Source: Roseivirga sp.
Lineage (GTDB): Bacteria; Bacteroidota; Bacteroidia; Cytophagales; Cyclobacteriaceae
Assembly: GCA_021404565.1 (NCBI GenBank)
Contig: JAAWWF010000001.1
Location: 248,001 to 312,000 of the forward strand
Reading direction: 5' to 3'
Length of the DNA stretch: 64,000 nucleotides
The notes beneath the pieces were generated by a model. The model worked only from the letters and a program-made list of their open reading frames with translations. It was not told the origin of the DNA and did not search any database. Positions 4,854 to 53,216 of this stretch are shown piece by piece. How positions within the stretch are numbered: position 1 is the stretch's first letter; each line of letters opens with the position of its first letter. Both the position numbers and the translations under genes were made by a program.

Positions 4854-4856
4854 CGC

Positions 4857-7208: not shown

Positions 7209-7219
7209 AGTATTGATGT

Positions 7220-9613: not shown

Positions 9614-9632
9614 GGTATGTTGAGTTTTGAGC

Positions 9633-11978
9633 TTATTCTGTTCTTAATGCCTTCACCGGGTTTTGCCTTGCCGATTTAAAGGATTGATTCAATAAAATCA
9701 GCCAGATCATAAGCACAAGCCCTATCAGGGGTGCCAGATAAATGGTTATGTTCAATTGAATTCTGTTGGCGAAACCCTCTACCCAGGAGTTCATGATAAG
9801 ATGCACGGAGGGTAAAGCAATCAGGGCTACAATAACAATGAGGGTGGTAGTGCCCTTGTTGAGGAGCCAGATAATATTGCCGATTTTGGCTCCCAGCACC
9901 AGCCTTATACCGATCTCTTTGGTGCGTTGCTCCGCTATGTAAATAGACAGACCAAGTATACCCAAGCCTGCTACGAAAATGGCCAGGATACTGAAAACCG
10001 TAAACACCCGGGACAGTCTCTGTTCTTTGTCATACTTAGCAGCAAAGTCGTCATCGAGAAAACTGTAGTCAAAGGGGTATGATTCAGAAAAGGTATTGAA
10101 GGTTTCTTCAATACCTTTCAGGACATTTCTTACATCGCTGCCTGCCACTTTGATAAAGGCATGCTCGAAACCGTCTGGCTTGGCCAGGATCATCAAAGGT
10201 TCTATGGCGTCTTTGGCACTACCAAAAATGAAGTCATCAGTAACACCACTCACCTTATAGCTGAGAATTTTCTTTCCGAGGGGCTCATCCCAGTTAAATT
10301 CCTCCGCGGCACTTTCATTGACAAGCATAGCACGCTCGTTCAACTGGTCGTTCTGCTGGTTAAAATCTTCGCCCTGAGAAAGCTCTATACCAAGATTGGA
10401 AAGGAAGTTTTTTTCCACGGTCATCAGTCTTATGGGCATTCTCTCACTGGTACCCTCTGGCTGTACATAGAAACTGCTGCTCTGAGAAAAAACGTGAAAG
10501 GCGGCTCCTGTCACATCTCTTATGGCCGGGTTTTGGGATAGCTCTGCTTTAAAGGCCTGGTAGTTTTTCTGGAGCCCTTTGTCTTTCAGGCTTACCGAAA
10601 TCACCTGATCATCGTCCAGCCCCTTGTCTACCCGCTGCATATGTTTAAACTGTTGAAAAATAATGAGTGTGGTGGTCATCAGGCCCAGGCAGGTGAAAAA
10701 CTGGAACCCCACCAACACCTGACGAAAGGAGAAGCTCTTTTTCGTTCTGGTCTTACCCGCAAGAATTTGCACCGGGTTGAACCTGGACAGGTATAGAGCC
10801 GGGTACAGTCCGCTAATTATCCCTACCAGACAGCCCGAGCCCAGCATAAAAGAAAGCACCGTTGGGTCCAGGTAGTTGATGTCCAGCGGTTTGCCTACCA
10901 GCTCCGTAACAAATGGCAGAGACAGCTCTGCCAGGCATACGGAAAGAACGAGTGCAGCAAAGGAGATCAGCAAGGCTTCTACCAGAAACTGCCTTACAAT
11001 CTGAGTACGGTTGCCTCCTACTGTTTTGCGAATTCCCACCTCCTTTGACCTTTTGTTGAGCCGGGCTGTAGCCAGGTTCATATAGTTGACCGAGGCTACA
11101 ATCAGGATGAGCACCGCAATCGCCAGGTACAATTGCACATACTGTTTGTTTCCCTTCTTGCCATATACATTCAGGTCAGAAAAATATATTTCGGGCAAAG
11201 CCAGAAGCTTACCGTATTGGTTCTGATGTGGATTCAGGGTTTCCCTGATTTTAGGCTCAACGCTGGCAGGATCGATAGTTTCATCTGATAGTTCAACATA
11301 AAGCCTGAAAACACTTAAAAAGCCCCAATCAAAAACACTCTTATCTCCCCAACCTTCAAAAGGCTTATTGGCCCGTGCAAAAGATATCACATAGTTAAAA
11401 TCGAGGTGCGTGTTTTCCGGCAGGTCGCGAAAAACATCCTTGATCAGAAGTTCTCCTACATCTACGATCTCCACTGTCTGACCAATGGCTTGTTCAGAGG
11501 TGCCAAACAGCTTTTCTGCTTCTGTTTCTGAAATCACCACTTCATCAATCGATAATTGAAGATCACTGCCCTTGGTTGACAGTAAAGGGAAGTCAAACAA
11601 ATCGAAAATCGCGGCATCAGCATAGACTACCTTGTCAATTAAAAATCGTTGATTGCTGACTTTAGCTACTTTCTGAGACTCCTTAAAAAGCCGTGCAAAT
11701 TTGGTAATCTCAGGAATCTGCTCCGCTAAAAGCGGACCTGCCGGAGCCTGGGTAGCCCCTTTGTAGCCATCACTCAGGTGATTTGAGTCTGCCAGATAAA
11801 CCTGATGAATCAGGTCTTTCTTCGAATGAAACTCGTCATAGCTGAACTCTTGCTGAACGAAAATGGTAAGCAGCATGAAACAGGCCATACCTACAGCCAG
11901 TCCCATCACATTGATCAATGAATATACCTTGTTATTCGCAAGGTACCGGAAAGAAGTTCTGAGGTAGTTTTTGAGCAT
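9633..11978 (-). CDS. FtsX/MacB-type ABC transporter permease E
   Basis: 781 residues. The first helix is in INVMGLAVGMACFMLLTIFV; the first FtsX block carries RSKEVGIRKTVGGNRTQI, with GG where A-D and H have GA. The last block reads AEQRTKEIGIRLVLGAKIG. Just before it is the stretch SFLDDDFAAKYDKEQRLSRV, nearly the same in F, G and I. These shared features group E with F, G and I as the more recently duplicated members. It lies 23 bp downstream of F and 19 bp upstream of D, in one operon. It ends RQNPVKALRTE. Confidence 0.92.
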   Translation of the reverse strand: MLKNYLRTSFRYLANNKVYSLINVMGLAVGMACFMLLTIFVQQEFSYDEFHSKKDLIHQVYLADSNHLSDGYKGATQAPAGPLLAEQIPEITKFARLFKESQKVAKVSNQRFLIDKVVYADAAIFDLFDFPLLSTKGSDLQLSIDEVVISETEAEKLFGTSEQAIGQTVEIVDVGELLIKDVFRDLPENTHLDFNYVISFARANKPFEGWGDKSVFDWGFLSVFRLYVELSDETIDPASVEPKIRETLNPHQNQYGKLLALPEIYFSDLNVYGKKGNKQYVQLYLAIAVLILIVASVNYMNLATARLNKRSKEVGIRKTVGGNRTQIVRQFLVEALLISFAALVLSVCLAELSLPFVTELVGKPLDINYLDPTVLSFMLGSGCLVGIISGLYPALYLSRFNPVQILAGKTRTKKSFSFRQVLVGFQFFTCLGLMTTTLIIFQQFKHMQRVDKGLDDDQVISVSLKDKGLQKNYQAFKAELSQNPAIRDVTGAAFHVFSQSSSFYVQPEGTSERMPIRLMTVEKNFLSNLGIELSQGEDFNQQNDQLNERAMLVNESAAEEFNWDEPLGKKILSYKVSGVTDDFIFGSAKDAIEPLMILAKPDGFEHAFIKVAGSDVRNVLKGIEETFNTFSESYPFDYSFLDDDFAAKYDKEQRLSRVFTVFSILAIFVAGLGILGLSIYIAEQRTKEIGIRLVLGAKIGNIIWLLNKGTTTLIVIVALIALPSVHLIMNSWVEGFANRIQLNITIYLAPLIGLVLMIWLILLNQSFKSARQNPVKALRTE

Positions 11979-12001
11979 GATACTTTGTTATTTTGAATTG
12001 A

Positions 12002-14359
12002 TTATTCGATTCTTAAGGCGTTTACCGGGTTTGCATTGGCCGACTTATAAGACTGATAGAAGAGTATGGACCAGATAATCCCCAGCAGTGCCAGAAGTGG
12101 TAAAATGAAATGAAATGGATTTAAATCTATTCTGTAAGCGAAACCATCGAGCCAGCGCTCTGTAAAATGATACACAGCCGGAATAGTAGCCAGGGCCACA
12201 ATGAGTACCAGTATAGTGATGCCACTGTTGAGCAACCAAACCACCTGAGCCAGTCGCGCTCCCAACACCTTTCTGATGCCTATTTCTTTAATTCTGGACT
12301 CTGCAATGAAGATTGACAACCCCAACACACCCAAGCCTGCTATAAAAATGGTAAAGATGCTGAAGAGACCGAAAACCTCGCCTAAACGTTTTTCTTTTTC
12401 ATACTTGGCGGCAAATACATCATCCAGAAAGGTGTAATCAAAAACATGATCGGCATCAAAATTCTGGAGCGTCTTTTCAATATGCTTCAGGCCCGCGCCT
12501 ACATCCCCTACCATTCTTAGGTATAAGTAGTCATCAGCATCGCTTTTCTGCATAATTACTGTGGGCTTGATCTCGCTTTTGGCTGATTCATAGATAAAGT
12601 CTTTAACCACACCAACGATTTTATTCTCGCCCAGAAGTTTTTTGCCCAGTGGCTCATCCCAGCCAGCCTCTCTTACAAAAGCCTCGTTTACCAGTACGGT
12701 ACTCTGTATCTCGCTTTCTTGTAAATCCGCAAACAGGCTGCCCTGAACAGCTTCAACCTCCAACATTTTGATTAAACCCGACTCTACGCTCATCAAAGAA
12801 GAAGATATTTCCTGATCATCATTCACAGATATGCCCATAGTTACAGCACCACCAGACAGCGGACTGATATTGGCTCGCATAACATCTTCTATATTTGGTG
12901 ACAGTTTAAGTTCGTTCTTGATACTGACTGCAGATTTTTTGAGCACCTTGTCCAGCTCGATGATCAACATCTGATCAGTATTAAAACCCATATCAATATT
13001 GCGCATATGCTGATGCTGCGAGAAGAGGATAAAGGTCGATGAGATCAGTCCCAGGCAAATAGCGAACTGTACACCTACCAACACTTTCCTGAATATACTT
13101 TTGTCTTTTCCGCTACCCCCGATAAGGTTTTGCTTGGCAGAGAATTTAGAGAGATAGAAGGCAGGATAAAGACCGGAAACCAGGCCTACCAGCAAGATGG
13201 TGCCCAACAGGTAGAAATAGGTCAAAGGGGCCGTATAGTCAATATCCACCACTTTGTCGGTGTAGTTATTGAAGTAGGGCATCGCCATCTCAGCCAACAT
13301 AAGTCCAACGACCAGGGCAAATGTGGTAATGGTAAGTGACTCCACCAGAAACTGGAAAACCAGCTGATTTCTATGCCCTCCGATGGTCTTTCTGATTCCC
13401 ACCTCTTTGGCTCGCTTAGAAAAGCGCGCAGTGGAAAGATTCATATAATTTACCACAGCAATCAGCAGCAGAATAAGACCTACCGCTACAAACAGCTTGA
13501 GCTCTTTCATATCCCCTTTATCTCTGAAATAACCAGGGTTATACTCACTCAGGTAGATATCTTCCAGTTCCATTAATTTAACTTCCTTCTCGCCCGTATG
13601 TGGCAGCATAAACTGCTGGATTTTCAACTCCACGGCTTCTACATCAATTGGGCCTGTCGTCTGATAATAAGTTATATAGGCGCTTACCTTTCCCCATTTC
13701 ATCACATCCATGCCGGGCATGTTAAACCCTGATCCATAAAAGAGCAACTCATTGGCATGGTCAAAAGACATGAGCATTTCAAAACCCAAATGAGAGTTTT
13801 CAGGCATGTTTTCAAAGACCCCGATTACCTCGAGTTTTTCCAGATCCGGAATCTCAATAATTTTGCCTATGGCCTCGTCCACACTCTCGTATAACCTGAG
13901 AGCCTCTTCTTTAGAGATCAGAATCTGCTGTTTTGAAAACACCTTGCCTGGCGCATTACCTGCGATGATGTTGATATCAAATATGTCGAATGTGCTCGCA
14001 TCGGTATAACACAAACCTTTGACCTCAAAAGACTTTTGATCAGTTATTATCTTCAGGGAGGTTTTTCCAAAACGAGTAAAATTTGTAATCTCCGGTACAC
14101 TCGCCATCACCTCAGGTCCCATGGGGGCCATGGTGGTATAACTGAATGGCCCTTCTACCGCAGCGCTATCGGCCAGGTACATCTGATAGATATTTTCTTT
14201 ATTAGTCTGAAAGCTATCAAAGCTCAATTCCCGGTTTATAAAAAGAGATAGCAGGATAAAGCAGCAAAGTCCCATGGAAAGTCCTAATACATTGATCAGG
14301 GAGTATACTTTGTGCTTGGTAAACTGACGCAGTGCAATGCGGAGAAAATTGAGAATCAT
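12002..14359 (-). CDS. FtsX/MacB-type ABC transporter permease F (first gene of five-gene unit)
   Basis: 785 residues. First helix in INVLGLSMGLCCFILLSLFI; first FtsX signature KRAKEVGIRKTIGGHRNQL (GG subgroup); last block SRIKEIGIRKVLGARLAQV; ends NANPVNALRIE. The stretch DDVFAAKYEKEKRL before the last block is almost shared with E and G. It begins the F-E-D-C-B unit: a 172-bp spacer separates it from the stop of G, and a strong -7-like promoter block lies 38 bases before the ATG. Permease role by family; no ATPase lies in the unit, so one must be supplied from elsewhere. Confidence 0.92.
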   Translation of the reverse strand: MILNFLRIALRQFTKHKVYSLINVLGLSMGLCCFILLSLFINRELSFDSFQTNKENIYQMYLADSAAVEGPFSYTTMAPMGPEVMASVPEITNFTRFGKTSLKIITDQKSFEVKGLCYTDASTFDIFDINIIAGNAPGKVFSKQQILISKEEALRLYESVDEAIGKIIEIPDLEKLEVIGVFENMPENSHLGFEMLMSFDHANELLFYGSGFNMPGMDVMKWGKVSAYITYYQTTGPIDVEAVELKIQQFMLPHTGEKEVKLMELEDIYLSEYNPGYFRDKGDMKELKLFVAVGLILLLIAVVNYMNLSTARFSKRAKEVGIRKTIGGHRNQLVFQFLVESLTITTFALVVGLMLAEMAMPYFNNYTDKVVDIDYTAPLTYFYLLGTILLVGLVSGLYPAFYLSKFSAKQNLIGGSGKDKSIFRKVLVGVQFAICLGLISSTFILFSQHQHMRNIDMGFNTDQMLIIELDKVLKKSAVSIKNELKLSPNIEDVMRANISPLSGGAVTMGISVNDDQEISSSLMSVESGLIKMLEVEAVQGSLFADLQESEIQSTVLVNEAFVREAGWDEPLGKKLLGENKIVGVVKDFIYESAKSEIKPTVIMQKSDADDYLYLRMVGDVGAGLKHIEKTLQNFDADHVFDYTFLDDVFAAKYEKEKRLGEVFGLFSIFTIFIAGLGVLGLSIFIAESRIKEIGIRKVLGARLAQVVWLLNSGITILVLIVALATIPAVYHFTERWLDGFAYRIDLNPFHFILPLLALLGIIWSILFYQSYKSANANPVNALRIE

Positions 14360-14393
14360 AATGCAATCTTTGATCAGTTCTTTCCAAGAGCCG

Positions 14394-14406
14394 TACCAAA
14401 GTTAAA
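14394..14406 (-). promoter_or_regulatory. Promoter block of permease F operon
   Basis: The minus strand reads TTTAACTTTGGTA, identical over 13 bases to the block before permease A, with a perfect TAnnTTTG element 38 bases before the ATG. It should drive the five genes F to B. Confidence 0.55.
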
Positions 14407-14459
14407 CAACTCGTAATCAATACCTTAACGAGACATCAATTAAAACTTCTATCCGCTCA

Positions 14460-14484
14460 CGCACTGTACCGTCCGTCAGCGGAC
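14460..14484. repeat. Intergenic hairpin repeat, copy 2
   Basis: A 25-bp element matching copies 1 and 3 (CGCACTGTACCG then the hairpin). One base beyond it a perfect 6-bp stem CGTCCG/CGGACG closes on a TCAG loop. It lies between the stop of permease G and the promoter of F. There is no U-tract on the minus strand after the stem. Confidence 0.6.
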
Positions 14485-14531
14485 GCCTTTATTTCTTTAT
14501 GAGCTCATGGCACAAGAATATGCACGGTTTA

Positions 14532-16883
14532 TTATTCAGACCGAAGAGCCTCCACAGGGTTCAAACGGGCGGATCGGAGCGATTGATAAAGCAAAATGCC
14601 CCATACCACTATCAGGAGTGACAATAAGGGGGTGAAGAAATAAAGCAGGTTCAGATCGATTCTAAAGGCGAATCCCTGAAGCCAGACAGTCATAACATAA
14701 TATGCTAAAGGCAGGATTATAACAGCTACGCCCAAAATCAACAATGTGATGTCTCCATTTAGCAGCCAAACGATACGATTAATACCGGCACCGAGCACCT
14801 TCCTGATCCCGATTTCCTTGGTCCTGGTTTCAGCGATAAAAATCGACAACCCAAGTACACCCAACCCTGCAATAAACAAGGTCAGCATACTGAAAGCCGC
14901 AAAGGCTTCCCCTAGCTTCTTCTCCGATTCATATTTAGCAGTAAACTCATCATCCAGAAATCGGTATTCAAATGGATGATCAGGGGAAAACTCATCGAAA
15001 ACATCTTGAATAGCAGTCATAGCGTCAGAAATATTCCCATTAATACGGATGTAAGCACATTCAAAATCTCCCTCTTTTCCTTCGTGAATCATCATGGGTG
15101 AAATTACATTTCTGGCTGATCCGTAGATAAAATCCTTGACAATTCCTGTTACCCTAGATTCCATCAAGGACTGGCTGAGTGGGGTCTCCCACCCGGTGGC
15201 TCCAACCGCAGCCTGATTTATGATCACTGACCTTTGGCGATCACTCTCTTGCTGCTCCGAAAACAGAAGTCCCTCTTCCTTTTCTATTTCCATCAGATCG
15301 AAGAAATTCTCTTCTACCCGCACCCAGGTAATCAACATATCTTCCTGCCCCTCTACATCAGTCTTAATAAAAAACTCTTCGCCAAATACATTAATCGAAG
15401 CCCCGGCAACCCCCATCACCTCAGGGTTGGTCAATAGTTCATTCTTGAAACTGAGGTATGAAGCCTGTAGGTTTTTGTCCTTTAATGGAAGTACCACCAA
15501 AAGCTCCTTATTCAAACCTGTATCTAACTTACTGATATGGGCGTGTTGTTGGTAAACCACCGCGGTAACAACCATTAAACCCAGACAGGTGGCAAACTGA
15601 AAGCCCACCAGCACTTTTCGGAATACTCCGCTTTTTTTACCTGAATACCCTTTATTCAAGCCTTGCTTAGGACTAAATGCAGATAAGAAGAGTGAGGGAT
15701 AAATGCCGGCAATTGTTCCGACAAATACGGTAAAACCAATAAAAATGACGTAAGTGGAAATGGAGGAATAATCTATCGTCAGTTCCATACCCAGGTAGCT
15801 ATTGAAGAAAGGAATCACCAGTTCGAATAGGCAGAGTGCTGCAATCGATGACACCATTACCAAGGCGATCGATTCGGCTAAAAACTGTAAAATCAACTGC
15901 GAACGACCTCCCCCGACAACCTTTCGCACTCCTACTTCTTTCGCCCTTTTAGAAAAGCGTGCCGTTGTGAGGTTGGTATAATTCACAACTGCCACAATGA
16001 GTACGATTATCCCTATCAATAGGTACAGATTAAGGTAACGATCGTCTCCTTTTGATTTGAAATAGCCCTCGTTTCTATCAGAAAAATAAACCTCTTCCAA
16101 GGGTATCAGTGTGATTTTTCTTTCAACATGTGGCTTCATTGCTCCTTCCATTTTGCCTTCGAGCAACACAAGGTCCTCTACAGCCTTTTTTGTTTTGATA
16201 TAGGTAGGATAGCCACCTGCACTCCAGCTTAGAAAATTGAAGTTGGACCCTGTTTCAAAGTGCATCAGGCCAGCAACATGATCAAAGGAAATAAGGTAAT
16301 CGAAAGCCAAATGTGTGTTTTGAGGCAGGTCATTGAAAACTGCCTTTACTACGAACTTACTATAACCTGGTATCTCAAAAGGTTCACCCGGAGCACTATC
16401 TGCAGAACCATACAGCTTTTCTGCCGCTGACCTTGAAATGAGAATATCGCTTTTGTTCAATTCAACCGATTCAGCAGATACCTTTAAAAACTCCAGATCG
16501 AAAAACCGGAGTGTCGCCACATCTGTGCTATGCAATTGAGGAATAATGAACCGGTTACCATTTGCCTTTGCCAGTACATTTTTGCTCGACTTAAACCTGG
16601 TAAAGTCCTCTATTTCAGGAACCATTTCTGCAAATAGCGGACCAGCGGGAGCCAGGATTAAACCGGAATGTTCGAATCTGTTTTCTGCATCAAAGTCTGC
16701 TTGAACCTGATAAATCAAGTCTTTGTTTTTCTGAAAACTATCATAACTCAACTCGTACTTCACCAACAAAGCGAGCAGGATGAAACAGGCCATCCCCAGT
16801 GACAAGCCAAAAACATTAATGAATGCACTTACCTTATTTTTTGTATGGTGCCTTAAAGACTGCTTTATGAGGCTGAAAATCAT
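14532..16883 (-). CDS. FtsX/MacB-type ABC transporter permease G
   Basis: 783 residues. First helix in NVFGLSLGMACFILLALLV; first FtsX signature KRAKEVGVRKVVGGGRSQL (GG subgroup); last block TRTKEIGIRKVLGAGINRI; ends RLNPVEALRSE. The sequence before the last block, FLDDEFTAKYESEKKLGEAF, shows close kinship with F. It follows H by 36 bp and is probably the second gene of an H-G unit; a hairpin repeat follows its stop. All helices and both signatures are intact, so it should be functional. Substrate unknown. Confidence 0.92.
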   Translation of the reverse strand: MIFSLIKQSLRHHTKNKVSAFINVFGLSLGMACFILLALLVKYELSYDSFQKNKDLIYQVQADFDAENRFEHSGLILAPAGPLFAEMVPEIEDFTRFKSSKNVLAKANGNRFIIPQLHSTDVATLRFFDLEFLKVSAESVELNKSDILISRSAAEKLYGSADSAPGEPFEIPGYSKFVVKAVFNDLPQNTHLAFDYLISFDHVAGLMHFETGSNFNFLSWSAGGYPTYIKTKKAVEDLVLLEGKMEGAMKPHVERKITLIPLEEVYFSDRNEGYFKSKGDDRYLNLYLLIGIIVLIVAVVNYTNLTTARFSKRAKEVGVRKVVGGGRSQLILQFLAESIALVMVSSIAALCLFELVIPFFNSYLGMELTIDYSSISTYVIFIGFTVFVGTIAGIYPSLFLSAFSPKQGLNKGYSGKKSGVFRKVLVGFQFATCLGLMVVTAVVYQQHAHISKLDTGLNKELLVVLPLKDKNLQASYLSFKNELLTNPEVMGVAGASINVFGEEFFIKTDVEGQEDMLITWVRVEENFFDLMEIEKEEGLLFSEQQESDRQRSVIINQAAVGATGWETPLSQSLMESRVTGIVKDFIYGSARNVISPMMIHEGKEGDFECAYIRINGNISDAMTAIQDVFDEFSPDHPFEYRFLDDEFTAKYESEKKLGEAFAAFSMLTLFIAGLGVLGLSIFIAETRTKEIGIRKVLGAGINRIVWLLNGDITLLILGVAVIILPLAYYVMTVWLQGFAFRIDLNLLYFFTPLLSLLIVVWGILLYQSLRSARLNPVEALRSE

Positions 16884-16919
16884 ATAATTGGGTTTTAGGT
16901 CAGGTTATGTTTGTGAGCA

Positions 16920-19334
16920 TTAGTTATCTCGGATGATTTCTGAGGGATTTGTGCGGGCCACCTTAGCAGAATACCAGCCCGATGATAAGAGTGTACAAAG
17001 GATCAGCGTCAATCCGGTAAAGACATAGACCCAATTGGATGGAGCCACTCTGAAGGCAAATTGGTTTATCCAACTATCTGAGGCCAGTTGTACCATGGGA
17101 ATGGCTATAAGACTCGAAATGATCAGAATAATAAAGAATGTTTTGCTCTGTAAAATGAAAAGCTGCCCAAATGAGGCTCCGAGAATCTTTCTTATTCCCA
17201 CTTCCTTCAGCTTTTGTTTACCATAGAAAACTGACAATGCGAAAACTCCGGCAAAGGCAATGATACATACTGCCATCGCCAAAGCACTTGTCATTGATTT
17301 CATTTTTAGCTCCGATGAGTAAAGCCTTTTATGCTCATCTTCCAAAGCGGTGATTCTGAAGGGTTCAGAGGGTTCATATTTCCACCAAAGGGCGTTGAGC
17401 TTATCAAACAACAGCTTTTGATCAACATTATCGTTTACTCTGATCGAAAAGAAGCTTGCAGCATTGACATTGATAAGAGGTACAAAAACCAGGGGCACAA
17501 AGTCATTTTTGACTGAGGTAAGATGAAAATTCTTGACACTCCCGGATTGAATCATGAAGTTCATGTTTTCGGCACCTTTAAAATGAGGCAGAATTTTCCC
17601 CGCTACATTATCACCAAAGCCATTTATTGCGGCTTCATTAAGTACAACGACCCTGCCATCGGTACAAAAAAGCTCTGATATGCTTTCACCAAAAGAGGTT
17701 TCGATGTTGTAGAAATCAAAAAAGTCGCATTGAATGCCTGCCATAAGAATTGACTGCTCCACTTCTCCACCTTCGAGCTTTTTACTTCGAAGTGCGTTCT
17801 TTCTTAGTACCGACACGGGATGAACATCCGACAGAGTAACATCCAGTATTTCAGGCATGGCCATCAGTTCGTTTTCGAAGTTTTGCATAACACTCCGATC
17901 ATTATCCCTGGCATAATTCCAGGAACTATTCATCACCAGTCGATTCTCGAAATCAAAGCCCAGGTCTTTAGACAGCATAAAATCTATCTGCCTGTTCATA
18001 AAGAATGTCAGTGCCAGCATCACGAAGGTGATAACAAACTGAAAAGACATCAATAAGTTCTTAACAGAGTACCTGGAGTTGCCCAGGTTCAGCCCCGATT
18101 TAAACAGACTCATTACCTTAATGTTAGAAATCAATATGGACGGATAGAGTCCGGCAATCAAACCCACTCCCATGGCGATAGCAAATAGAATCGCGTAGCT
18201 ACCTATACCAAGCCCGGCCTGCTCCAGATCACGTCCCACAAATCGTTCAAAATCAGGCTGGAACAACTCCATAAATACCAATCCTACAAAAAATGCCATG
18301 GCAGAAAGCAGCAGGGATTCCATCAGTGATCTCTTAATGATCTGCATTTTATGAGCTCCTATGATCTTATGGACAGCCACTTCGCGAGTGCGGCTCAATG
18401 CCACAGCCAATGAGATATTACCGAAATTGGCGATGGCCACCAACAGTAAACCAATCGAGATAGCTATCAGCCAGGTCATTAGTCTCTCATCGGCCTGCTC
18501 TTTGAACTGAGGCATATAATCCGATGAAGTAAAATGATAATCCTGAATTGGTTCCAATATGTATTCCTCTACACCGGAAACGAGTACCTTCTTATCTCTT
18601 GCCAGCGTAGTCAATTGCTCTGCCAAAGTAGCCTTATCTGTTCCGGGGTTGAGTTTTAGAAAAGTCTGGAAGAGGAGCATCATAGGATGGTTGAAGTGCT
18701 GCTCATAGTCAGGGCTTACCTTGAGAGTTTGTAAAGAGATGACAAATTCAGGGCTAATTGAGGTATTAGAGGGGAAGTCTTTATAAACGCCTACAACTTC
18801 CAATTCACTATCTCCAATAAGCAGTAGTTTACCTATGGCATAAGTGCCCTCAAAGTACTTCTCAGCTACCTTTTCACTGATGAGCACCGTATTAGGCCTT
18901 TCCAACTGCCCCCCATCTCCCAATTGCACCTTCAAACCGAACATGGCGATAAATGACGACTCAGTATATACGAGTTCCTTCTCCTCAAAAGCCAGGTCAT
19001 ATCGGTCTTTTGATCTTACCAGCTCACTATTGTAGGCAAAAAGTCCCCGGGCAATTTCCTCTACTGCAGGAAAAGCTTCTTTGACGCCCTCGGTACTGAC
19101 ATATGAGAGGTTCGAATGAACAGACATAATATCCGAATTCATACCATCCATTACAAGGCGATGCAATGTCTCACTTTCCGGGTAGGCTGTATCAAAACTT
19201 ACCTCATGAGACACATAAACATAAGTCATAAAGACACAGCATAGCGCCACTCCAAGTCCCAGCACATTGATCCAGGTATAGACAAGATGCTTTTTTAAAC
19301 TACGCGTAGCAATGATGAAATTAGTCTTGAACAT
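16920..19334 (-). CDS. FtsX/MacB-type ABC transporter permease H (divergent member)
   Basis: 804 residues, the longest and most divergent of the nine. First helix in VLGLGVALCCVFMTYVYVS; the first FtsX signature reads SRTREVAVHKIIGAHKMQI, where the others have KEVGxRK, so the conserved glycine is replaced by alanine and the arginine by histidine. The last block, KLKEVGIRKILGASFGQL, is normal. It ends TNPSEIIRDN rather than NPVxALRxE. It is first in the probable H-G unit, with a promoter block 36 bases before the ATG. It may have a different partner or a structural role in a mixed complex, but that is inference. Confidence 0.9.
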   Translation of the reverse strand: MFKTNFIIATRSLKKHLVYTWINVLGLGVALCCVFMTYVYVSHEVSFDTAYPESETLHRLVMDGMNSDIMSVHSNLSYVSTEGVKEAFPAVEEIARGLFAYNSELVRSKDRYDLAFEEKELVYTESSFIAMFGLKVQLGDGGQLERPNTVLISEKVAEKYFEGTYAIGKLLLIGDSELEVVGVYKDFPSNTSISPEFVISLQTLKVSPDYEQHFNHPMMLLFQTFLKLNPGTDKATLAEQLTTLARDKKVLVSGVEEYILEPIQDYHFTSSDYMPQFKEQADERLMTWLIAISIGLLLVAIANFGNISLAVALSRTREVAVHKIIGAHKMQIIKRSLMESLLLSAMAFFVGLVFMELFQPDFERFVGRDLEQAGLGIGSYAILFAIAMGVGLIAGLYPSILISNIKVMSLFKSGLNLGNSRYSVKNLLMSFQFVITFVMLALTFFMNRQIDFMLSKDLGFDFENRLVMNSSWNYARDNDRSVMQNFENELMAMPEILDVTLSDVHPVSVLRKNALRSKKLEGGEVEQSILMAGIQCDFFDFYNIETSFGESISELFCTDGRVVVLNEAAINGFGDNVAGKILPHFKGAENMNFMIQSGSVKNFHLTSVKNDFVPLVFVPLINVNAASFFSIRVNDNVDQKLLFDKLNALWWKYEPSEPFRITALEDEHKRLYSSELKMKSMTSALAMAVCIIAFAGVFALSVFYGKQKLKEVGIRKILGASFGQLFILQSKTFFIILIISSLIAIPMVQLASDSWINQFAFRVAPSNWVYVFTGLTLILCTLLSSGWYSAKVARTNPSEIIRDN

Positions 19335-19366
19335 AGCTGTTTTTTCAACTACTCAGCCAATTATCG

Positions 19367-19379
19367 AACCAAACTTAAC
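19367..19379 (-). promoter_or_regulatory. Promoter block of permease H operon
   Basis: The minus strand reads AGTTAAGTTTGGTT, with TAAGTTTG matching TAnnTTTG, 36 bases before the ATG of H. It aligns with the blocks before A and F. Confidence 0.5.
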
Positions 19380-19432
19380 TATCTGACTTTAAGTAAATTA
19401 GTACAATAATTATTCAACAATTTGCTCGTTAA

Positions 19433-19457
19433 CGCACTTTACCGTCCGCTGACGAAC
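19433..19457. repeat. Intergenic hairpin repeat, copy 3
   Basis: Aligns with copies 1 and 2 (CGCACTTTACCGTCCGCTGA then CGAAC); the end folds as GTCCG/CGAAC with a G-U pair. It begins 12 bp beyond the stop of permease I, with the palindrome CGTTAACG at its left edge (19427-19434). Confidence 0.6.
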
Positions 19458-19468
19458 AACAAGATGGA

Positions 19469-21847
19469 CTAATCTGATCTCAAGGCATTGACCGGGTTCG
19501 TTCTGGCAGCGGAAAGCGATTGATAAATCAATATACCCCAGGCAAATAAGACTAATGCCAGGATTGGGATAATGAACGAAAGTGCATCCAGTGAAACACG
19601 ATTGGCAAAGTCATCAAGCCAGGCCGACATATAGTAGTAGCTAACGGGTAGGGCCAGTAATGCTGCAAGAATGATAAGTTTGGTGATATTGGTATTAAGT
19701 AACCATACAACATTGAAGGTACTTGCTCCCAATACACGCCTGATACCAATTTCTTTCATTCGCTGCTGAGCTAAAAAGAGAGACAAACCCAGCATACCCA
19801 GGCCAGCTATAAACACCGCTAATATGCTGAAGGTTGTAAATACTCTCTTAAGCCTTTGTTCGGAGGCAAATTTAGTAGCGAACTGATCGTCCAGGAAGGT
19901 ATATTCAAAAGGGTAATTGGTAGCAAATTTGTCATAAACGACTTCAACACTTTCTAATGACGCTTGCATATCGCTGCTGTTGAGTTGTAAATAAACCTTC
20001 GAAAAATTAGCCTGTTCAGCCATAACCATCAGAGGTCTGACCTCCCTCTTAACCGAACCATAGACAAAATTGTCTAACACGCCTACAACAGACATGTCCA
20101 TTAGTTTCTCTTTCAGAGGATCAGTCCAGCCAAATTCTTCTACAGTGGCCTGATTCACCAATATTTTGTTCTTGTTATCGGCTGGTGTTTGTGCATTAAA
20201 AGCACTTCCCTGTAGTATTTCAATTCCCAGGTTTTCAACAAATCCAGGCTCCACCATCATCATGGTTACCAAGACCTTTTTTTCCGGATCTTTTCCGGCC
20301 AGTTGCATCAAGGGTGCCTCTCCATCGAATGCCGAAAAGACAGATCCATTCACGAAATTCACATTTGGGTCTTGCAGCAGTTCAGACTTTATAGCACCGT
20401 AATTTTTCTTTACTCCATCATCTTCAATGTTGACAGCAATCACTTGCTCAGTGCCAAAACCTCTGTCGATAGTAGTGATATAGTTAAACTGCCGCAACAC
20501 AATACCTGTAATAGTAATAAGTGAAAGGCAAACGAAGAACTGGAAACCTACCAATAACTGGCGCACGTAGCCTCCGGATTTGCCCCTTAGAATTCTCCCT
20601 TTTAAGGTCTCCAAAACCTCCAGCTTAGACAGGTACAGCGCAGGATACAAACCCGAGATAGCTCCTACGATAACCGCAAAACCAGTAAGTCTTAAGTAGG
20701 TGAGCGGATTCTGATAATCTAATGAGATATCAGAACCGGAGAAGTCTCTAAACCATGGTAAACTTATCTCCAGAAAACAGACACTCAATACAATAGAAAT
20801 AGCTGTTAAGCACACAGACTCAGAGATAAACTGAGCAATTAACTGGGACCGAAACCCACCCAGACTCTTTCTCACGCCTACTTCTTTAGATCTTTGGCCG
20901 TACTGGGCTGTGGCAAGGTTAGCATAATTCACAATGGCTAAAATCAGTATTATCATACTGGTCAGTATATAGAGAGACAACCCACTGCGGTCACCAGCTT
21001 TACCAAAAAAACCAGGATTCAATTCGGAGAAATAGATTTCCTCCAAAGGCAACAATTTTACTTCATAATCCTTCTCAAAGTGTGTCTTTAGTAAAGAAAC
21101 AATCTTGGTTTCAATGGATGATAGCTCCTCAGAAGGTGCATCCAGCTTTAAATAAAGTGGAAAGACATTGAGAGTTCTCAGGTCATAACTCAACTCCTGA
21201 CCGCCCACTCTTAGGTTTGATAAATCATGGATGGCCGTTACATTTTCGAATGAGATCAGCACATCAAAGTCCATATGACTGTTGGAAGGCATATCATGAA
21301 ATACACCCGTTACCTGAAAATCTCCCAGGTCCGTCACTCCTACGGTTTTTCCTATTGCTCCATCAGTCTCACCAAAAAGTTTAATCGCCTCAGACTCAGA
21401 AAGAATCATATCCCTGGATTCAAACCTCACCTTTGCCGCCTGGTCATGGATAAAACTTAACTCAAAGGTTGTAAAAAGAGATTTATCAGTGTAGAAGATT
21501 TCATCATACAAAAATCTTTCCCCATCTACCTTAAGTACGCGATGACTCCAGCTACCAAACCTCACCGTAGCCTCAACTTCGGGAATAGACTCCTCTATGA
21601 TTTCAGCAATAGGAGCCATGGTAGCATAAGAATACCTGAGCTCGCCAAAACGATCATCTCCCAAAAACACCTCGAATACCTGATCAGACTCCTCTATATG
21701 CTCGTCAAAGCTGAATTCACGTTCTACATAGAGCATGATTAGCATAAAACAGGTCATACCAATGGCTAATCCGAAAACATTAATGATGGAATAAAGCCTG
21801 TTTTTTCTAAGCCGCCTTAAGGCCATATTGACATAATTCCTGAACAT
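19469..21847 (-). CDS. FtsX/MacB-type ABC transporter permease I
   Basis: 792 residues from the ATG at 21847-21845. A longer frame starting at 21889 exists, but the chosen start gives MFRNYVNMALRRLRKNRLYS, which matches the starts of all its paralogues. First helix in NVFGLAIGMTCFMLIMLYV; first FtsX signature QRSKEVGVRKSLGGFRSQL (GG subgroup); last block QQRMKEIGIRRVLGASTFNV; ends RTNPVNALRSD. It is the member nearest the divergent two-component genes and has its own promoter block 73 bases upstream. The 134-bp spacer to H contains another promoter block, so I is probably a single-gene unit. Confidence 0.92.
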   Translation of the reverse strand: MFRNYVNMALRRLRKNRLYSIINVFGLAIGMTCFMLIMLYVEREFSFDEHIEESDQVFEVFLGDDRFGELRYSYATMAPIAEIIEESIPEVEATVRFGSWSHRVLKVDGERFLYDEIFYTDKSLFTTFELSFIHDQAAKVRFESRDMILSESEAIKLFGETDGAIGKTVGVTDLGDFQVTGVFHDMPSNSHMDFDVLISFENVTAIHDLSNLRVGGQELSYDLRTLNVFPLYLKLDAPSEELSSIETKIVSLLKTHFEKDYEVKLLPLEEIYFSELNPGFFGKAGDRSGLSLYILTSMIILILAIVNYANLATAQYGQRSKEVGVRKSLGGFRSQLIAQFISESVCLTAISIVLSVCFLEISLPWFRDFSGSDISLDYQNPLTYLRLTGFAVIVGAISGLYPALYLSKLEVLETLKGRILRGKSGGYVRQLLVGFQFFVCLSLITITGIVLRQFNYITTIDRGFGTEQVIAVNIEDDGVKKNYGAIKSELLQDPNVNFVNGSVFSAFDGEAPLMQLAGKDPEKKVLVTMMMVEPGFVENLGIEILQGSAFNAQTPADNKNKILVNQATVEEFGWTDPLKEKLMDMSVVGVLDNFVYGSVKREVRPLMVMAEQANFSKVYLQLNSSDMQASLESVEVVYDKFATNYPFEYTFLDDQFATKFASEQRLKRVFTTFSILAVFIAGLGMLGLSLFLAQQRMKEIGIRRVLGASTFNVVWLLNTNITKLIILAALLALPVSYYYMSAWLDDFANRVSLDALSFIIPILALVLFAWGILIYQSLSAARTNPVNALRSD

Positions 21848-21916
21848 AGTTTTATCATTTTGTGAGTGATGTGAAATGGGTTTCCCCAAAATTTGTCACA
21901 TCTTTACCAAAAGCTA

Positions 21917-48216: not shown

Positions 48217-48777
48217 ATGGATGATCAGTCGCTGGTAAGGAGCATCTTAAATGGTAACACACAGGCATTTTCTTTTCTGATCAGGAAATATGAAAAGCTC
48301 GTATACCATATGGTGCAAAAACTGGTGAATGATGAACCAAGTGTGGAAGAGCTGGCCCAGGATGTATTTATGAAGGTCCATGATAAACTTCCTGGTTTTC
48401 GTTTTGAAAGTAAGCTTTCTACCTGGATCGCTACGATCGCTTACCGTCACACGGTTAATCATCTGAGAAAATCAAAGCGTATGGTGTATAAAGAGTTAGA
48501 AGAAGCGAGTGAGGAAAGGTTTTTCATTACTGAAGAAACCCCTGCTCAGATTTATGAATCGCAGGACACCGGCAAATATGTGCAGGAGCATATTCAAAAG
48601 CTTCCGGCACACTATAGAAATATACTGTACCTCTACCACATTGAGGAGATGACCTACCCTGAGATAGTAGAGATAACCGGGCTACCGGTAGGCACTGTAA
48701 AGAATTACCTTTTCAGGGCAAGGAAGCTTTTAAAGGAGCAATTGAGTAAATTTGTAAAACAAGAGGAGCTGTTATGA
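48217..48777 (+). CDS. ECF RNA polymerase sigma factor
   Basis: 186 residues. Region 2 at about 15-85 (AFSFLIRKYEKLVYHMVQKL, then VEELAQDVFMKVHDKL) and region 4 at about 130-175 (LPAHYRNILYLYHIEEMTYP, then EIVEITGLPVGTVKNYLFRA) are both clear. It should direct transcription of envelope-response genes. Its stop overlaps the start of the next gene (ATGA), which looks like its membrane anti-sigma partner. Confidence 0.93.
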   Translation: MDDQSLVRSILNGNTQAFSFLIRKYEKLVYHMVQKLVNDEPSVEELAQDVFMKVHDKLPGFRFESKLSTWIATIAYRHTVNHLRKSKRMVYKELEEASEERFFITEETPAQIYESQDTGKYVQEHIQKLPAHYRNILYLYHIEEMTYPEIVEITGLPVGTVKNYLFRARKLLKEQLSKFVKQEELL

Positions 48778-50259: not shown

Positions 50260-50671
50260 ATCAAACTAACGAGAACTCAAATTGATTTGAAATTTATAAA
50301 CAATAATATCATAGGAGTATTCCTCATTATCCGGTATGCTCAAATTTTGAGCACATATAAGAAAACTACATTTAACTTATTTTAAATCAGATCTTTAATA
50401 ATCAATAATACAACTATTACTTCAATTATTTTTCTCAATTTTGACCTATAGACAATCTATACCTGTCCGAAAACAAATCAACAATCTCCAGGTCACTCTC
50501 AATAAAACCTGACATTTCGTCACCCCATATTAATGTCCCTTATCATTAAACCCTGAGGCTTACAAAACATCTACTGTGTACCATTCCTGCCTCTTGGCCG
50601 TTGAATGGTTGACAAGTTTCATAATTGTCTCTATGTTCGCTCCTCAAATCAAAAATCGAAATTACACGGTC
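50260..50671. other. Gene-free divergent spacer of 412 bp
   Basis: AT-rich spacer between the MpaB-like and propeller-protein genes. It contains the palindrome at 50337-50353; a frame extending the right-hand gene upstream to 50576 has no protein character. No further feature recognised. Confidence 0.5.
50337..50353. promoter_or_regulatory. Palindrome TGCTCAA-ATT-TTGAGCA
   Basis: Perfect 7-bp arms around 3 bases, 78 bp before the start of the MpaB-like gene. Operator-like, but no regulator gene is adjacent. Confidence 0.35.
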
Positions 50672-51547
50672 ATGAAAAGATCTATAATCTTCACCCTGCT
50701 CCTATCCATTTTTGCCGGCTTAAAAATGGAAGCTCAGAACCCGCCCAGTACTGACATTTACATTTTCGATTTGAAGGAGGTAAAGCGAAGGGTTAAGATT
50801 ACAAACCCGTGGAATATCACGAACCGTGATGGCTACGATAATCAGCCCTATTTTTACAATGCAAACGAGGTGCTTTTTACCTCTGCTCAGGCCGATGGGC
50901 AAATGGATATTTTCCACTACAATCTGCTGGACAGCACTTCTGAAAATGTGACCAATACACCTAATACCAGCGAGTACTCTGCGCACATGATTTCGCGTAC
51001 CAAGTCCTTTGTGGTGGTGCGCGTGGAAGAGGATAACAAACAACGCTTGTGGCAGTTTCCGCTGGACGGAAAAGAGTCTCCCAAGCTGATGTTCGAAGAA
51101 CTGGAACCAGTAGGCTATCATGCCTGGGCCAGCACTGAGGTGGCCATGTTTATTTTGGGCGACCCTAACAGCCTGATGCTCTCCAGCACCAAGGTACGCA
51201 ACGATCGTAAGCTGGAAGAAAACATTGGCCCTACCATCAAAACAAGAGGCAGAAATTTCCTGTTCTCTAAAAAAATTGAAAAGGGCAACCAGGAGATCTT
51301 TATGATTGCAGGCCGTGGCGATAAGGTCAGAAGAATGACCGTGACTCCCAGAGATGCCAATGACTGGGCCGTTACACCACAAGGCACCTACCTGGCCAGC
51401 GTGGGAAATAAAATCTGGAAAATCAACCCAACGTTTGACAGTGCCTGGTCCGAGATCCTGGACCTGTCGGACCTCGGGATCGAGAACATTACCCGCATTG
51501 CCGTAAGTGCCGATAACACTAAATTAGGGCTGGTAGTAGACCGTTGA
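50672..51547 (+). CDS. Secreted TolB-like beta-propeller protein
   Basis: 291 residues from the ATG at 50672, which gives MKRSIIFTLLLSIFAGLKMEAQ, a clean signal peptide; the frame upstream to 50576 lacks it. WD40/PD40-like repeats follow: NQPYFYNANEVLFTSAQADG, then IFHYNLLDSTSENVTNTPN and TEVAMFILGDPNSLML. Such propellers bind partner proteins or ligands in the periplasm. The gene ends in its own terminator, so it is separate from the actin/bactofilin operon that follows. Confidence 0.75.
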   Translation: MKRSIIFTLLLSIFAGLKMEAQNPPSTDIYIFDLKEVKRRVKITNPWNITNRDGYDNQPYFYNANEVLFTSAQADGQMDIFHYNLLDSTSENVTNTPNTSEYSAHMISRTKSFVVVRVEEDNKQRLWQFPLDGKESPKLMFEELEPVGYHAWASTEVAMFILGDPNSLMLSSTKVRNDRKLEENIGPTIKTRGRNFLFSKKIEKGNQEIFMIAGRGDKVRRMTVTPRDANDWAVTPQGTYLASVGNKIWKINPTFDSAWSEILDLSDLGIENITRIAVSADNTKLGLVVDR

Positions 51548-51563: not shown

Positions 51564-51686
51564 AAATACAAAAGTTTTTAAGAAATTCGTCCTGATTTTC
51601 GGCAACCACGCGACAATCAATTCGATTTAGTCGTATTATTGCTTTTATTGCGGTTTCAAAAACGAGCCTAACACAAAGAACCTACT

Positions 51687-52742
51687 ATGTTTAAGACCTA
51701 CACGTTCCCTAGTGTATTTGAGGGTAACAATACAGACCTTAGAAATGTATCTCCCGACCTGATCAACGGTATCAAAATATATCATAATGGTGACGGGTAT
51801 GTTATTGGAAACCTGGCTTTAACTGAGGGAGTTTCTCCTCACAGAAATATAAACAGTGCTCCGGACGAATTGGATTATAACATTCTGCTCAAATCAGGGC
51901 TTCTGATAGCCAACCAGCGTTTAGGCAATCCGCTTACCATCACCACTGGCTTCCCTTTTTCTACTTTCCAGTTGTATAAAGAAGTAGCCTCAGGTCTGAT
52001 CAATAACCAGCATGTGATTGAGTACGATGCTGCCACTTACGGTGGAGGCTCCAAGAAAAACGTTCAGGTAGACATAGACAATGTACAGGTGATTCCTGAA
52101 GTAATAGGCTGTGCGATTGCGCTGAGAAAGGGCATGACAAAGGCCAGCGGAAACTTCTTTGTGATGAGTCTTGGCTATGGTACACTGGAAGGTCTGTTGA
52201 GTACTGAGGGAGGTATTGTACAAAGAACATCTCTTTCTACTTATGGCTTGCGTTATGCAGTTAACCTGCTGGAAAAAGAGCTCTCTAAGCAGTATTACCT
52301 CGAATTGAAGACGGAACATCAGATTGATGCAGCTTTCCAGAAGGGTGTGATCTTTCTGAACAGAAAGCGTATTGATATTAAACCACTGAGGGATAAAGTA
52401 CTGAGACAGTATTATGAAGATGTGATCTCTCCTGCCATGAGAAAGGCGTTCAACGATAATGATTTCACCCTCTCTCACGTAATGTACCTTGCCGGAGGTG
52501 GCGCTATGTACCCTGAGCTTGTCAACTGCTTTAAGCAGGAATTCCAGGACATTCTTGATCTGGAAGTAGCTCACGAGCCTCAGGCACTTGCCAGCCGTGG
52601 TTACTGCATTAATTCTTCTCAGCTCAATGGAGGCGTGAAGAGTACCGCTGTAGGACTTGATATTGGTAATGCTTCTACCATCGTATCAATGTTCGATGAA
52701 AACAACTTAAGTTCTGAAACAACCATACCGGCAGATTACTAA
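51687..52742 (+). CDS. ParM-like actin homologue, apparently circularly permuted
   Basis: 351 residues. Actin-fold marks in order: GYVIGNLALTEG (38-48, like the GxxxVGxxA strand of ParM/archaeal actins), TITTGFPFSTF (84-94, like the GLPxS segment), VIPEVIGCAIAL (135-146), phosphate-2-like FVMSLGYGTLEGL (158-170), and adenosine-motif YLAGGGAMYPELV (267-279). The phosphate-1 hairpin that opens other actins (GxDxGxxxTK-like) is absent at the start, which reads MFKTYTFPSVFEG, and an in-frame TAA lies 18 bases upstream, so no N-terminal part is missing. Instead AVGLDIGNASTIVSMF is at 321-336, after the usual end. The phosphate-2 aspartate is replaced by S161. The next gene, a bactofilin, starts 3 bp later, so a filament or cytoskeletal role is likely. 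Promoter not assigned. Confidence 0.8.
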   Translation: MFKTYTFPSVFEGNNTDLRNVSPDLINGIKIYHNGDGYVIGNLALTEGVSPHRNINSAPDELDYNILLKSGLLIANQRLGNPLTITTGFPFSTFQLYKEVASGLINNQHVIEYDAATYGGGSKKNVQVDIDNVQVIPEVIGCAIALRKGMTKASGNFFVMSLGYGTLEGLLSTEGGIVQRTSLSTYGLRYAVNLLEKELSKQYYLELKTEHQIDAAFQKGVIFLNRKRIDIKPLRDKVLRQYYEDVISPAMRKAFNDNDFTLSHVMYLAGGGAMYPELVNCFKQEFQDILDLEVAHEPQALASRGYCINSSQLNGGVKSTAVGLDIGNASTIVSMFDENNLSSETTIPADY

Positions 52743-52745
52743 TTC

Positions 52746-53216
52746 ATGGCAAGAGACTCAGTAGCATCCAACCATTCGGTAAATATTACACAGGTCAAAG
52801 CAGGATCAGTGATCACTGGTAACATGAAGTCCAAACACAGCATTCGTGTAGATGGATATGTCACCGGTGATTTGGTCTCTGAAGAAAAAGTAATCGTAGG
52901 TGCACATGGAGAAATAGGCGGCAACCTGCTCGGTGCCGACATTACTATTGAGGGTTATGTTAATGGCGATGTACTAACCAAGGGTTCGTTACACGTAGCA
53001 CACAAAGCTGTGATCGTTGGTCGAATCTTTTCTAAGGAAATCTCCATAGAAAAAGGTGCAGAACTCAACGGGCAGGTAAGCGTAGGTATGGAAGTAGAGA
53101 TCCCTGACCTGGAAGCCAAAGCGCCTCTGGTTACTAAACCTACCAAGGCCATGGAGACCACAAAAAAAGCACAGAAGCAAGCTTCAGGAGACAACTACGG
53201 TACAGTGGCCTGGTAA
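52746..53216 (+). CDS. Bactofilin
   Basis: 156 residues. The central DUF583 beta-helix, about 14-115, shows the repeating hydrophobic-glycine pattern: GSVITGNMKSKHSIRVDGYV, GDLVSEEKVIVGAHGEIGG, then GADITIEGYVNGDVLTKGSL and AVIVGRIFSKEISIEKGAEL. Flanking tails are short and disordered, ending GDNYGTVAW. Bactofilins polymerise without nucleotide and act as scaffolds for cell shape or polar machinery. No peptidase gene, a frequent partner, is adjacent. It is co-transcribed with the actin homologue (3-bp gap) and its last codons form part of a terminator. Confidence 0.95.
   Translation: MARDSVASNHSVNITQVKAGSVITGNMKSKHSIRVDGYVTGDLVSEEKVIVGAHGEIGGNLLGADITIEGYVNGDVLTKGSLHVAHKAVIVGRIFSKEISIEKGAELNGQVSVGMEVEIPDLEAKAPLVTKPTKAMETTKKAQKQASGDNYGTVAW

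Follow-up and report, generated by a model that had tools for sequence, protein, structure and literature searches.

By the window we mean the whole 64-kb stretch of Roseivirga DNA that was analysed. It carries, on its forward strand, a gene for an actin-like protein (ALP) whose phosphate-1 (P1) hairpin stands near the end of the chain, followed directly by a bactofilin gene. The features on which the analysis rests are as follows.

51669 to 51671, forward strand: in-frame TAA that precedes the actin ATG by 18 bases, read from the sequence.
51687 to 52742, forward strand: gene for a circularly permuted ALP, 351 amino acids plus stop, from the open reading frame, the Pfam ALP_N match, and an AF2 model searched with Foldseek.
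51690 to 51710, forward strand: strand of residues 2-8 at the new N-terminus, read as canonical beta3 from DSSP of AF2 models with and without the hairpin.
52098 to 52100, forward strand: E138, the catalytic Gln/Glu position in the connect-1 region, invariant in 45/45 members.
52155 to 52190, forward strand: phosphate-2 region, residues 157-168 (FFVMSLGYGTLE), in which alignments place Ser161 at the position of the usual Asp.
52482 to 52505, forward strand: adenosine motif region (residues 266-273), in which 45/45 members keep G270-G272.
52647 to 52694, forward strand: relocated P1 hairpin, residues 321-336 (AVGLDIGNASTIVSMF), from invariant residues, predicted strands and rotation tests.
52746 to 53216, forward strand: bactofilin gene, 156 amino acids, starting 3 bases past the actin stop (PF04519, E 1.4e-20).

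The permuted actin gene occurs once in the Roseivirga genome. Upstream of it, on the same strand, lie genes for a sigma-70-family factor (48217 to 48777), which we read as ECF-like, and for a weakly TolB-like protein (50576 to 51547). Elsewhere in the window, eight consecutive open reading frames of 781 to 806 amino acids, all on the reverse strand (2478 to 21889), form what looks like a tandem array of paralogues; the two that were scanned encode MacB/FtsX-type permeases.

Residues 3-141 of the window protein align with positions 17-148 of the 148-position Pfam profile ALP_N (PF17989; E 9.6e-10), and MreB-like Pfam families match less strongly. Nothing at the N-terminus corresponds to profile positions 1-16 and, since the match begins at position 17, the protein enters the actin profile past the P1 hairpin. 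The initial annotation of this DNA had described both the missing N-terminal hairpin and the in-frame stop upstream of the gene, and both descriptions held: the TAA excludes an N-terminal extension, and no N-terminal copy of the hairpin was found in any of 45 distinct members of the family (83 sequences minus 38 that were identical or nested, a further row of 47 residues at a contig edge, from genome G372, being left out). A strict P1 pattern had no match in the 400 bases upstream of these 45 members in the three forward frames, and none of their in-frame extensions holds even a loose P1 pattern. A much looser pattern did yield 16 scattered short upstream matches in 16 of the 45 members, differing in frame and sequence. 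We read these as chance; taken at face value, they would favour an artefact in which an assembly error, a wrong start or a frameshift hides an N-terminal hairpin. Against such an artefact stand not only the stop codon and the upstream searches but also the repetition of the same order in independent genomes, named Roseivirga isolates included. The conserved order refutes it, and we give it essentially no credence.

A six-frame scan of the window finds the motif GxDxGNxxT once only, in the final part of the actin open reading frame, within the segment at residues 321-336 where the initial annotation had located its best match to the hairpin. In all 45 distinct Bacteroidota sequences, the window's included, GxDxGN lies inside the last 31 residues and nowhere else, and G323, D325, G327, N328 and T331 are invariant. 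A looser pattern run over the first 100 residues of the same members gave one match, in L043, and its position at residue 75 is not where P1 lies. Retention of the hairpin in 45/45 members excludes chance as the source of the C-terminal motif. A homologue with a normal N-terminal P1, named beforehand as the observation that would speak against a permutation, was found in 0/45 members of the Bacteroidota family, the normal motif order being seen only in far relatives that belong to other families (partition ALPs).

The Bacteroidota members span eight families (f1, f34, f36, f39, f41, f52, f53 and f62). With the window genome counted, the permuted actin was matched in 19 of 59 relatives, in 19 of 296 phylum genomes with a single-protein query and in 24 of 395 phylum genomes with a profile query; among 117 genomes of the class of G203, a sample that does not include the window genome, it was matched in 19 (the four genome samples overlap). 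The weakest family match among those listed from the 395-genome profile search had an E of 7e-138, barring one 47-residue fragment at a contig edge, and the permuted family is therefore discrete. A contig scan with patterns of the window protein alone gave 15 loci at 82-98% identity, 12 of them from Roseivirga. When ALP_N was searched in six frames against the 296 phylum genomes, 11/11 matches began at profile position 16-21 (this search recovered 10 of the 19 genomes with a known member and missed the window's own gene); three canonical ALPs used as controls begin at profile position 1 or 2.

We next consider rotation, in which the hairpin is moved to the front of the sequence; the ALP_N comparison was accompanied by controls with a reversed hairpin in front and with a deleted hairpin, and the phrog_691 comparison by reversed controls for two members. 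Aligned with hhalign against the three canonical ALPs, a profile of ten rows in natural order scored 115.4 (E 7.9e-16) over columns 26-311, residue 2 falling on canonical column 26. Once rotated, these ten rows scored 127.9 (E 1e-17) over columns 4-307, with the moved hairpin aligned onto the canonical P1 hairpin from column 4. ALP_N bit scores for the natural, rotated, reversed and deleted forms were 39.3, 42.8, 39.7 and 38.7 for the window protein, 35.9, 41.1, 36.9 and 35.8 for L045, 50.8, 60.0, 52.3 and 50.3 for L040, and 34.1, 42.2, 33.8 and 33.3 for L037. Rotation thus raised the score in 4/4 members (of the 45, these four were tried), the reversed hairpin shifted it by only -0.3 to +1.5 bits, and the alignment started from ALP_N position 1 in rotated rows only. 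The same four members behaved alike against phrog_691, where rotation raised the score from 68.9 to 71.8 bits for the window protein (reversed control 69.8), from 71.4 to 80.3 for L040 (reversed control 72.4), from 67.1 to 72.6 for L037 and from 71.2 to 73.3 for L045, the reversed hairpin adding about 1 bit in the two members in which it was tried. Rotated rows entered the phrog_691 profile at position 6, as against 27, 26, 45 and 52 for natural rows and 24 for reversed controls; two canonical ALPs begin at positions 3 and 5, and the third was matched in two pieces. On PDB sequences the rotated profile brought no clear gain over the natural one, the matches there being summed from separate weak stretches. 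The prediction that a rotated sequence should score higher was thus borne out against the canonical ALPs, ALP_N and phrog_691, and rotation restored colinear alignment to canonical members, the property by which a circular permutant is recognized. That the permutation is real and conserved is, in our assessment, as good as certain, and the window protein is a topological variant of known actin-like proteins.

An AF2 model of the window protein, built from an alignment of only 22 rows, reached a pLDDT of 87.2 and a pTM of 0.89 and has the two-domain actin fold, as judged from the model and from Foldseek. The best Foldseek match was pCBH ParM (6ixw, E 1.3e-14); Dh-cParM1 (8x1i), Ta0583 (2fsj), CorM of filamentous cyanobacteria and pSK41 ParM were also among the top matches, and the best 50 of 746 PDB matches at E <= 0.001 were ParM and other actin-like proteins, Ta0583, MreB and Hsp70 kin. 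The model forms strands at 321-326 and 330-336, in blocks of pLDDT 93 and 84, and the tail (residues 340-351) falls below a pLDDT of 50. In a second model, of residues 1-318 from the same 22 rows and thus devoid of the hairpin, the strand at residues 2-8 turned to coil and the pLDDT of block 1-10 fell from 89 to 67. Block 41-50 also dropped, from 75 to 60, and the elements listed between residues 29 and 313 were all unchanged. In the canonical actin fold beta2 pairs with beta3; loss of the 2-8 strand is therefore what would be expected if the hairpin fills the beta1-beta2 slot. These predictions make it very probable that residues 321-336 occupy the normal beta1-beta2 position, and the structural expectation of the initial annotation is in this way supported indirectly. 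On our explanation, the beta1-beta2 hairpin with its P1 loop has moved from the N-terminus to the C-terminus, leaving a chain that now begins at beta3, and would fold back within the same molecule to its usual place beside the nucleotide, a placement suggested by indirect evidence.

The model of a monomer cannot tell cis from trans, and a free C-terminal hairpin beside an open N-terminal edge strand could be exchanged, so that each subunit would donate its hairpin to a neighbour in the filament instead of closing its own fold. Such a strand swap is in our view improbable: the linker from helix 298-313 to strand 321-326 is about 7 residues in the model, which is short for a swap, and nothing positive points to it. 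Equally improbable is the further proposal that the C-terminal hairpin is itself the mechanism, being donated or withheld between subunits in a strand exchange that switches nucleotide binding and assembly, perhaps under the control of bactofilin. If true, it would describe an actin that polymerises by hairpin donation.

Returning to the reading in which the hairpin closes its own molecule, we examined the rest of the nucleotide site. E138 lines up with the Q of the Dh-cParM1 sequence VLPQ, and we take it to be the position of actin Q137 and ParM E148. Residues 266-273 correspond to the adenosine motif. Connect-1, the adenosine motif and the relocated P1, all motifs by which the actin superfamily is recognized, are present; the superfamily features without a match are a P1 at the N-terminus and the phosphate-2 aspartate. 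At the phosphate-2 Asp position, the column of which faces the Asp of BiP and of the canonical ALPs in alignments, 41 members carry S, three G and one N, and the surrounding G163, Y164, G165 and E168 are invariant in 45/45. With this Asp lost, ATPase activity cannot be assumed, and the substitution suggests that hydrolysis may be slow, altered or absent. Such a loss would also be seen in a decaying pseudo-ATPase, and it could be argued on this ground that the core is a degenerate ALP without a P1 loop and the C-terminal hairpin a decoy or regulatory P1-like tail. We find this very hard to reconcile with P1 residues, E138 and an adenosine-motif GGG that are all invariant, with the improved match to canonical P1 upon rotation, and with a 2-8 strand that needs the hairpin in the model. 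Our preferred reading is that the retained P1, connect-1 and adenosine motifs, in the context of the fold, would let the protein hold a nucleotide, ATP or a different one, in its cleft and form filaments, which slow, altered or absent hydrolysis would render more static or signal-controlled.

A second permuted group was found on plasmids. Searched at E 5, the divergent member L046 matched Aeromonas plasmid proteins at E 0.01, being about 23% identical to those of A. hydrophila and A. caviae; nine plasmid records were found in all by protein search. Four distinct proteins were translated, from A. hydrophila pMCR5_045096, from A. media pMC64A and pAeme3, and from Pigmentibacter ruber pGTC16762-3.

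L137:2983-4375, L138:2474-3881, L143:2001-3372 and L142:3001-4323: plasmid permuted actin-like genes, annotated as hypothetical (e.g. WP_109422211.1).

None of the four has an N-terminal P1; each finishes with a GLD[IV]GN..LK hairpin and has Q in the phosphate-2 Asp column. The Bacteroidota (A1) and plasmid (A5) groups align colinearly over 303 columns, hairpin included (hhalign probability 98.1), and thus have the permuted order and the cut site in common; the A1 profile scored 115.2 with the canonical group (A6) versus 100.8 with A5. A tree of 21 rows, in which the branches are very long, placed all 18 permuted rows on one side (support 87/86). A topology in which the plasmid proteins join the canonical row from Photobacterium was not rejected (p-AU 0.136), and grouping with either other canonical row was (p-AU 0.021 and 0.022). 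The tree would accommodate one origin of the permutation in the two groups as well as two. Searches of viral contigs found no relative of A1 or of the Aeromonas protein, and the latter had no match in phages at E 1. After each of the four plasmid genes comes a small open reading frame. The gene and this frame share 8 bases in the three Aeromonas plasmids and are separated by 3 bases in Pigmentibacter; in the one frame that was scanned, no Pfam or PHROG family matched significantly. A partition system is a natural guess for this pair, in which the small frame may encode the adaptor. As the hypothetical annotations of the plasmid genes illustrate, permuted proteins may be hidden by ordinary annotation. 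In one of the nine plasmid records, A. media pE31A (L144:2001-2988), the match is partial: it is confined to the C-terminal 59% of the protein, and transposase or insertion-sequence genes lie on both sides.

Compared with known systems, the window protein shares its fold (Foldseek) and a significant ALP_N match with ALP_N, ParM and Ta0583-type proteins, and differs from them in its C-terminal P1 hairpin, its replaced phosphate-2 Asp and its bactofilin neighbour. MreB has the actin fold and is chromosomal like the permuted actin, which matches Pfam MreB_Mbl only weakly (E 0.0081, 15.5 bits against a cut-off of 27). A separate MreB-family gene is present elsewhere in the genome (L112, E 1e-124). 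FcmB, also chromosomal, is described as an actin-like protein of filamentous cyanobacteria, related to partition actins, that sets cell shape with its partner FcmC (PMC12645912); the main text of that article nowhere mentions a permutation. The window protein falls below the NF052678 cut-off for FcmB (E 0.0017, 17.3 bits against 300), and its neighbour is a bactofilin instead of FcmC.

Few folds are as constrained as that of actin, and to our knowledge no natural circular permutant of actin has been described. The initial annotation knew of no described actin family with this order, in agreement with our search of the open-licence literature, a body with few subscription papers and preprints, in which no natural circularly permuted actin was found. 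A conserved permutant implies that the P1 hairpin, N-terminal in other actins, need not lead the chain. Permutation puts both termini at new places on the actin subunit, and the conserved family provides a natural test of the coupling between hairpin and filament.

Bactofilin is a nucleotide-free polymer, and it is the usual neighbour of the permuted actin in Bacteroidota, in contrast to the plasmid ALPs of Aeromonas and Pigmentibacter with their small downstream frame; the pair may thus represent a bacterial cytoskeleton that combines an actin with a bactofilin. At a distance of up to about 1.2 kb downstream, a same-strand bactofilin is present in 15/15 Roseivirga loci (L002-L016) and in 20/27 distant loci (14/20 of L065-L084 and 6/7 of L115-L121); in 11/18 Roseivirga-type loci the actin stop and the next start overlap as TAATG. 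The distant loci without a bactofilin in the stretch examined are three of genus g86 and four of genus g121, one of which (L116) has a sequence that ends about 1.5 kb downstream, and the partnership is therefore not obligatory. PF04519 gave 1-4 matches per genome in 20/20 genomes checked, so that adjacency is far above chance, with the qualification that related genomes do not count as independent. Each of the six unlinked genomes checked has a single bactofilin, on another contig; more than one match was found in 12 of the 14 linked genomes checked, the linked bactofilin being the sole match in G109 and G279. Bactofilin is likely a co-expressed partner of the permuted actin. The initial annotation had mentioned neither this partner nor the altered phosphate-2 motif nor the permuted group on plasmids.

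A competing possibility is that the window protein is a chromosomal plasmid-type (ParM-like) partition protein and not a partner of bactofilin. The phage 'partition protein' family phrog_691 is its best PHROG match (E 8.4e-19) and is matched by 16/22 A1 members, Foldseek finds ParMs, and the small frame next to the permuted plasmid genes is a possible adaptor. Yet the four natural-order permuted actins checked start later in the phrog_691 profile (26-52), with no recognized adaptor adjoining; unlike ParM in plasmid partition, the permuted actin has neither a ParR-type adaptor next door nor a plasmid setting. The window protein had no plasmid or phage match at E 1e-3, bactofilin follows in most of the distant Bacteroidota loci, and in the window a tyrosyl-tRNA synthetase gene comes after the bactofilin. 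We thus regard a partition role as unlikely. A filament-forming cytoskeletal role with bactofilin, to which the fold and the linkage point, is the role towards which we lean. Bactofilins are described as static, non-polar filaments of an accessory cytoskeleton (PMC10259793). From the linkage, the permuted actin and the product of the next gene would probably form a two-polymer module, the actin positioning a bactofilin scaffold on the membrane or cell wall or modulating it there. Taken together, the explanation of a natural permutant that would bind nucleotide, form filaments and work with bactofilin strikes us as likely, the permutation weighing most in this judgement.

The order of genes at these loci shows some variation. 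In two genomes of family f34 a 377-amino-acid gene separates the permuted actin from the bactofilin (L075:7003-8136 and the corresponding place in L076); the one of the two that was scanned encodes a TPR-repeat protein. In genus g133 (f53), 3/4 genomes examined hold two paralogous permuted actins (L071, L072, L073, L117, L118 and L121), which fall into two clades in a tree and each have their own downstream bactofilin.
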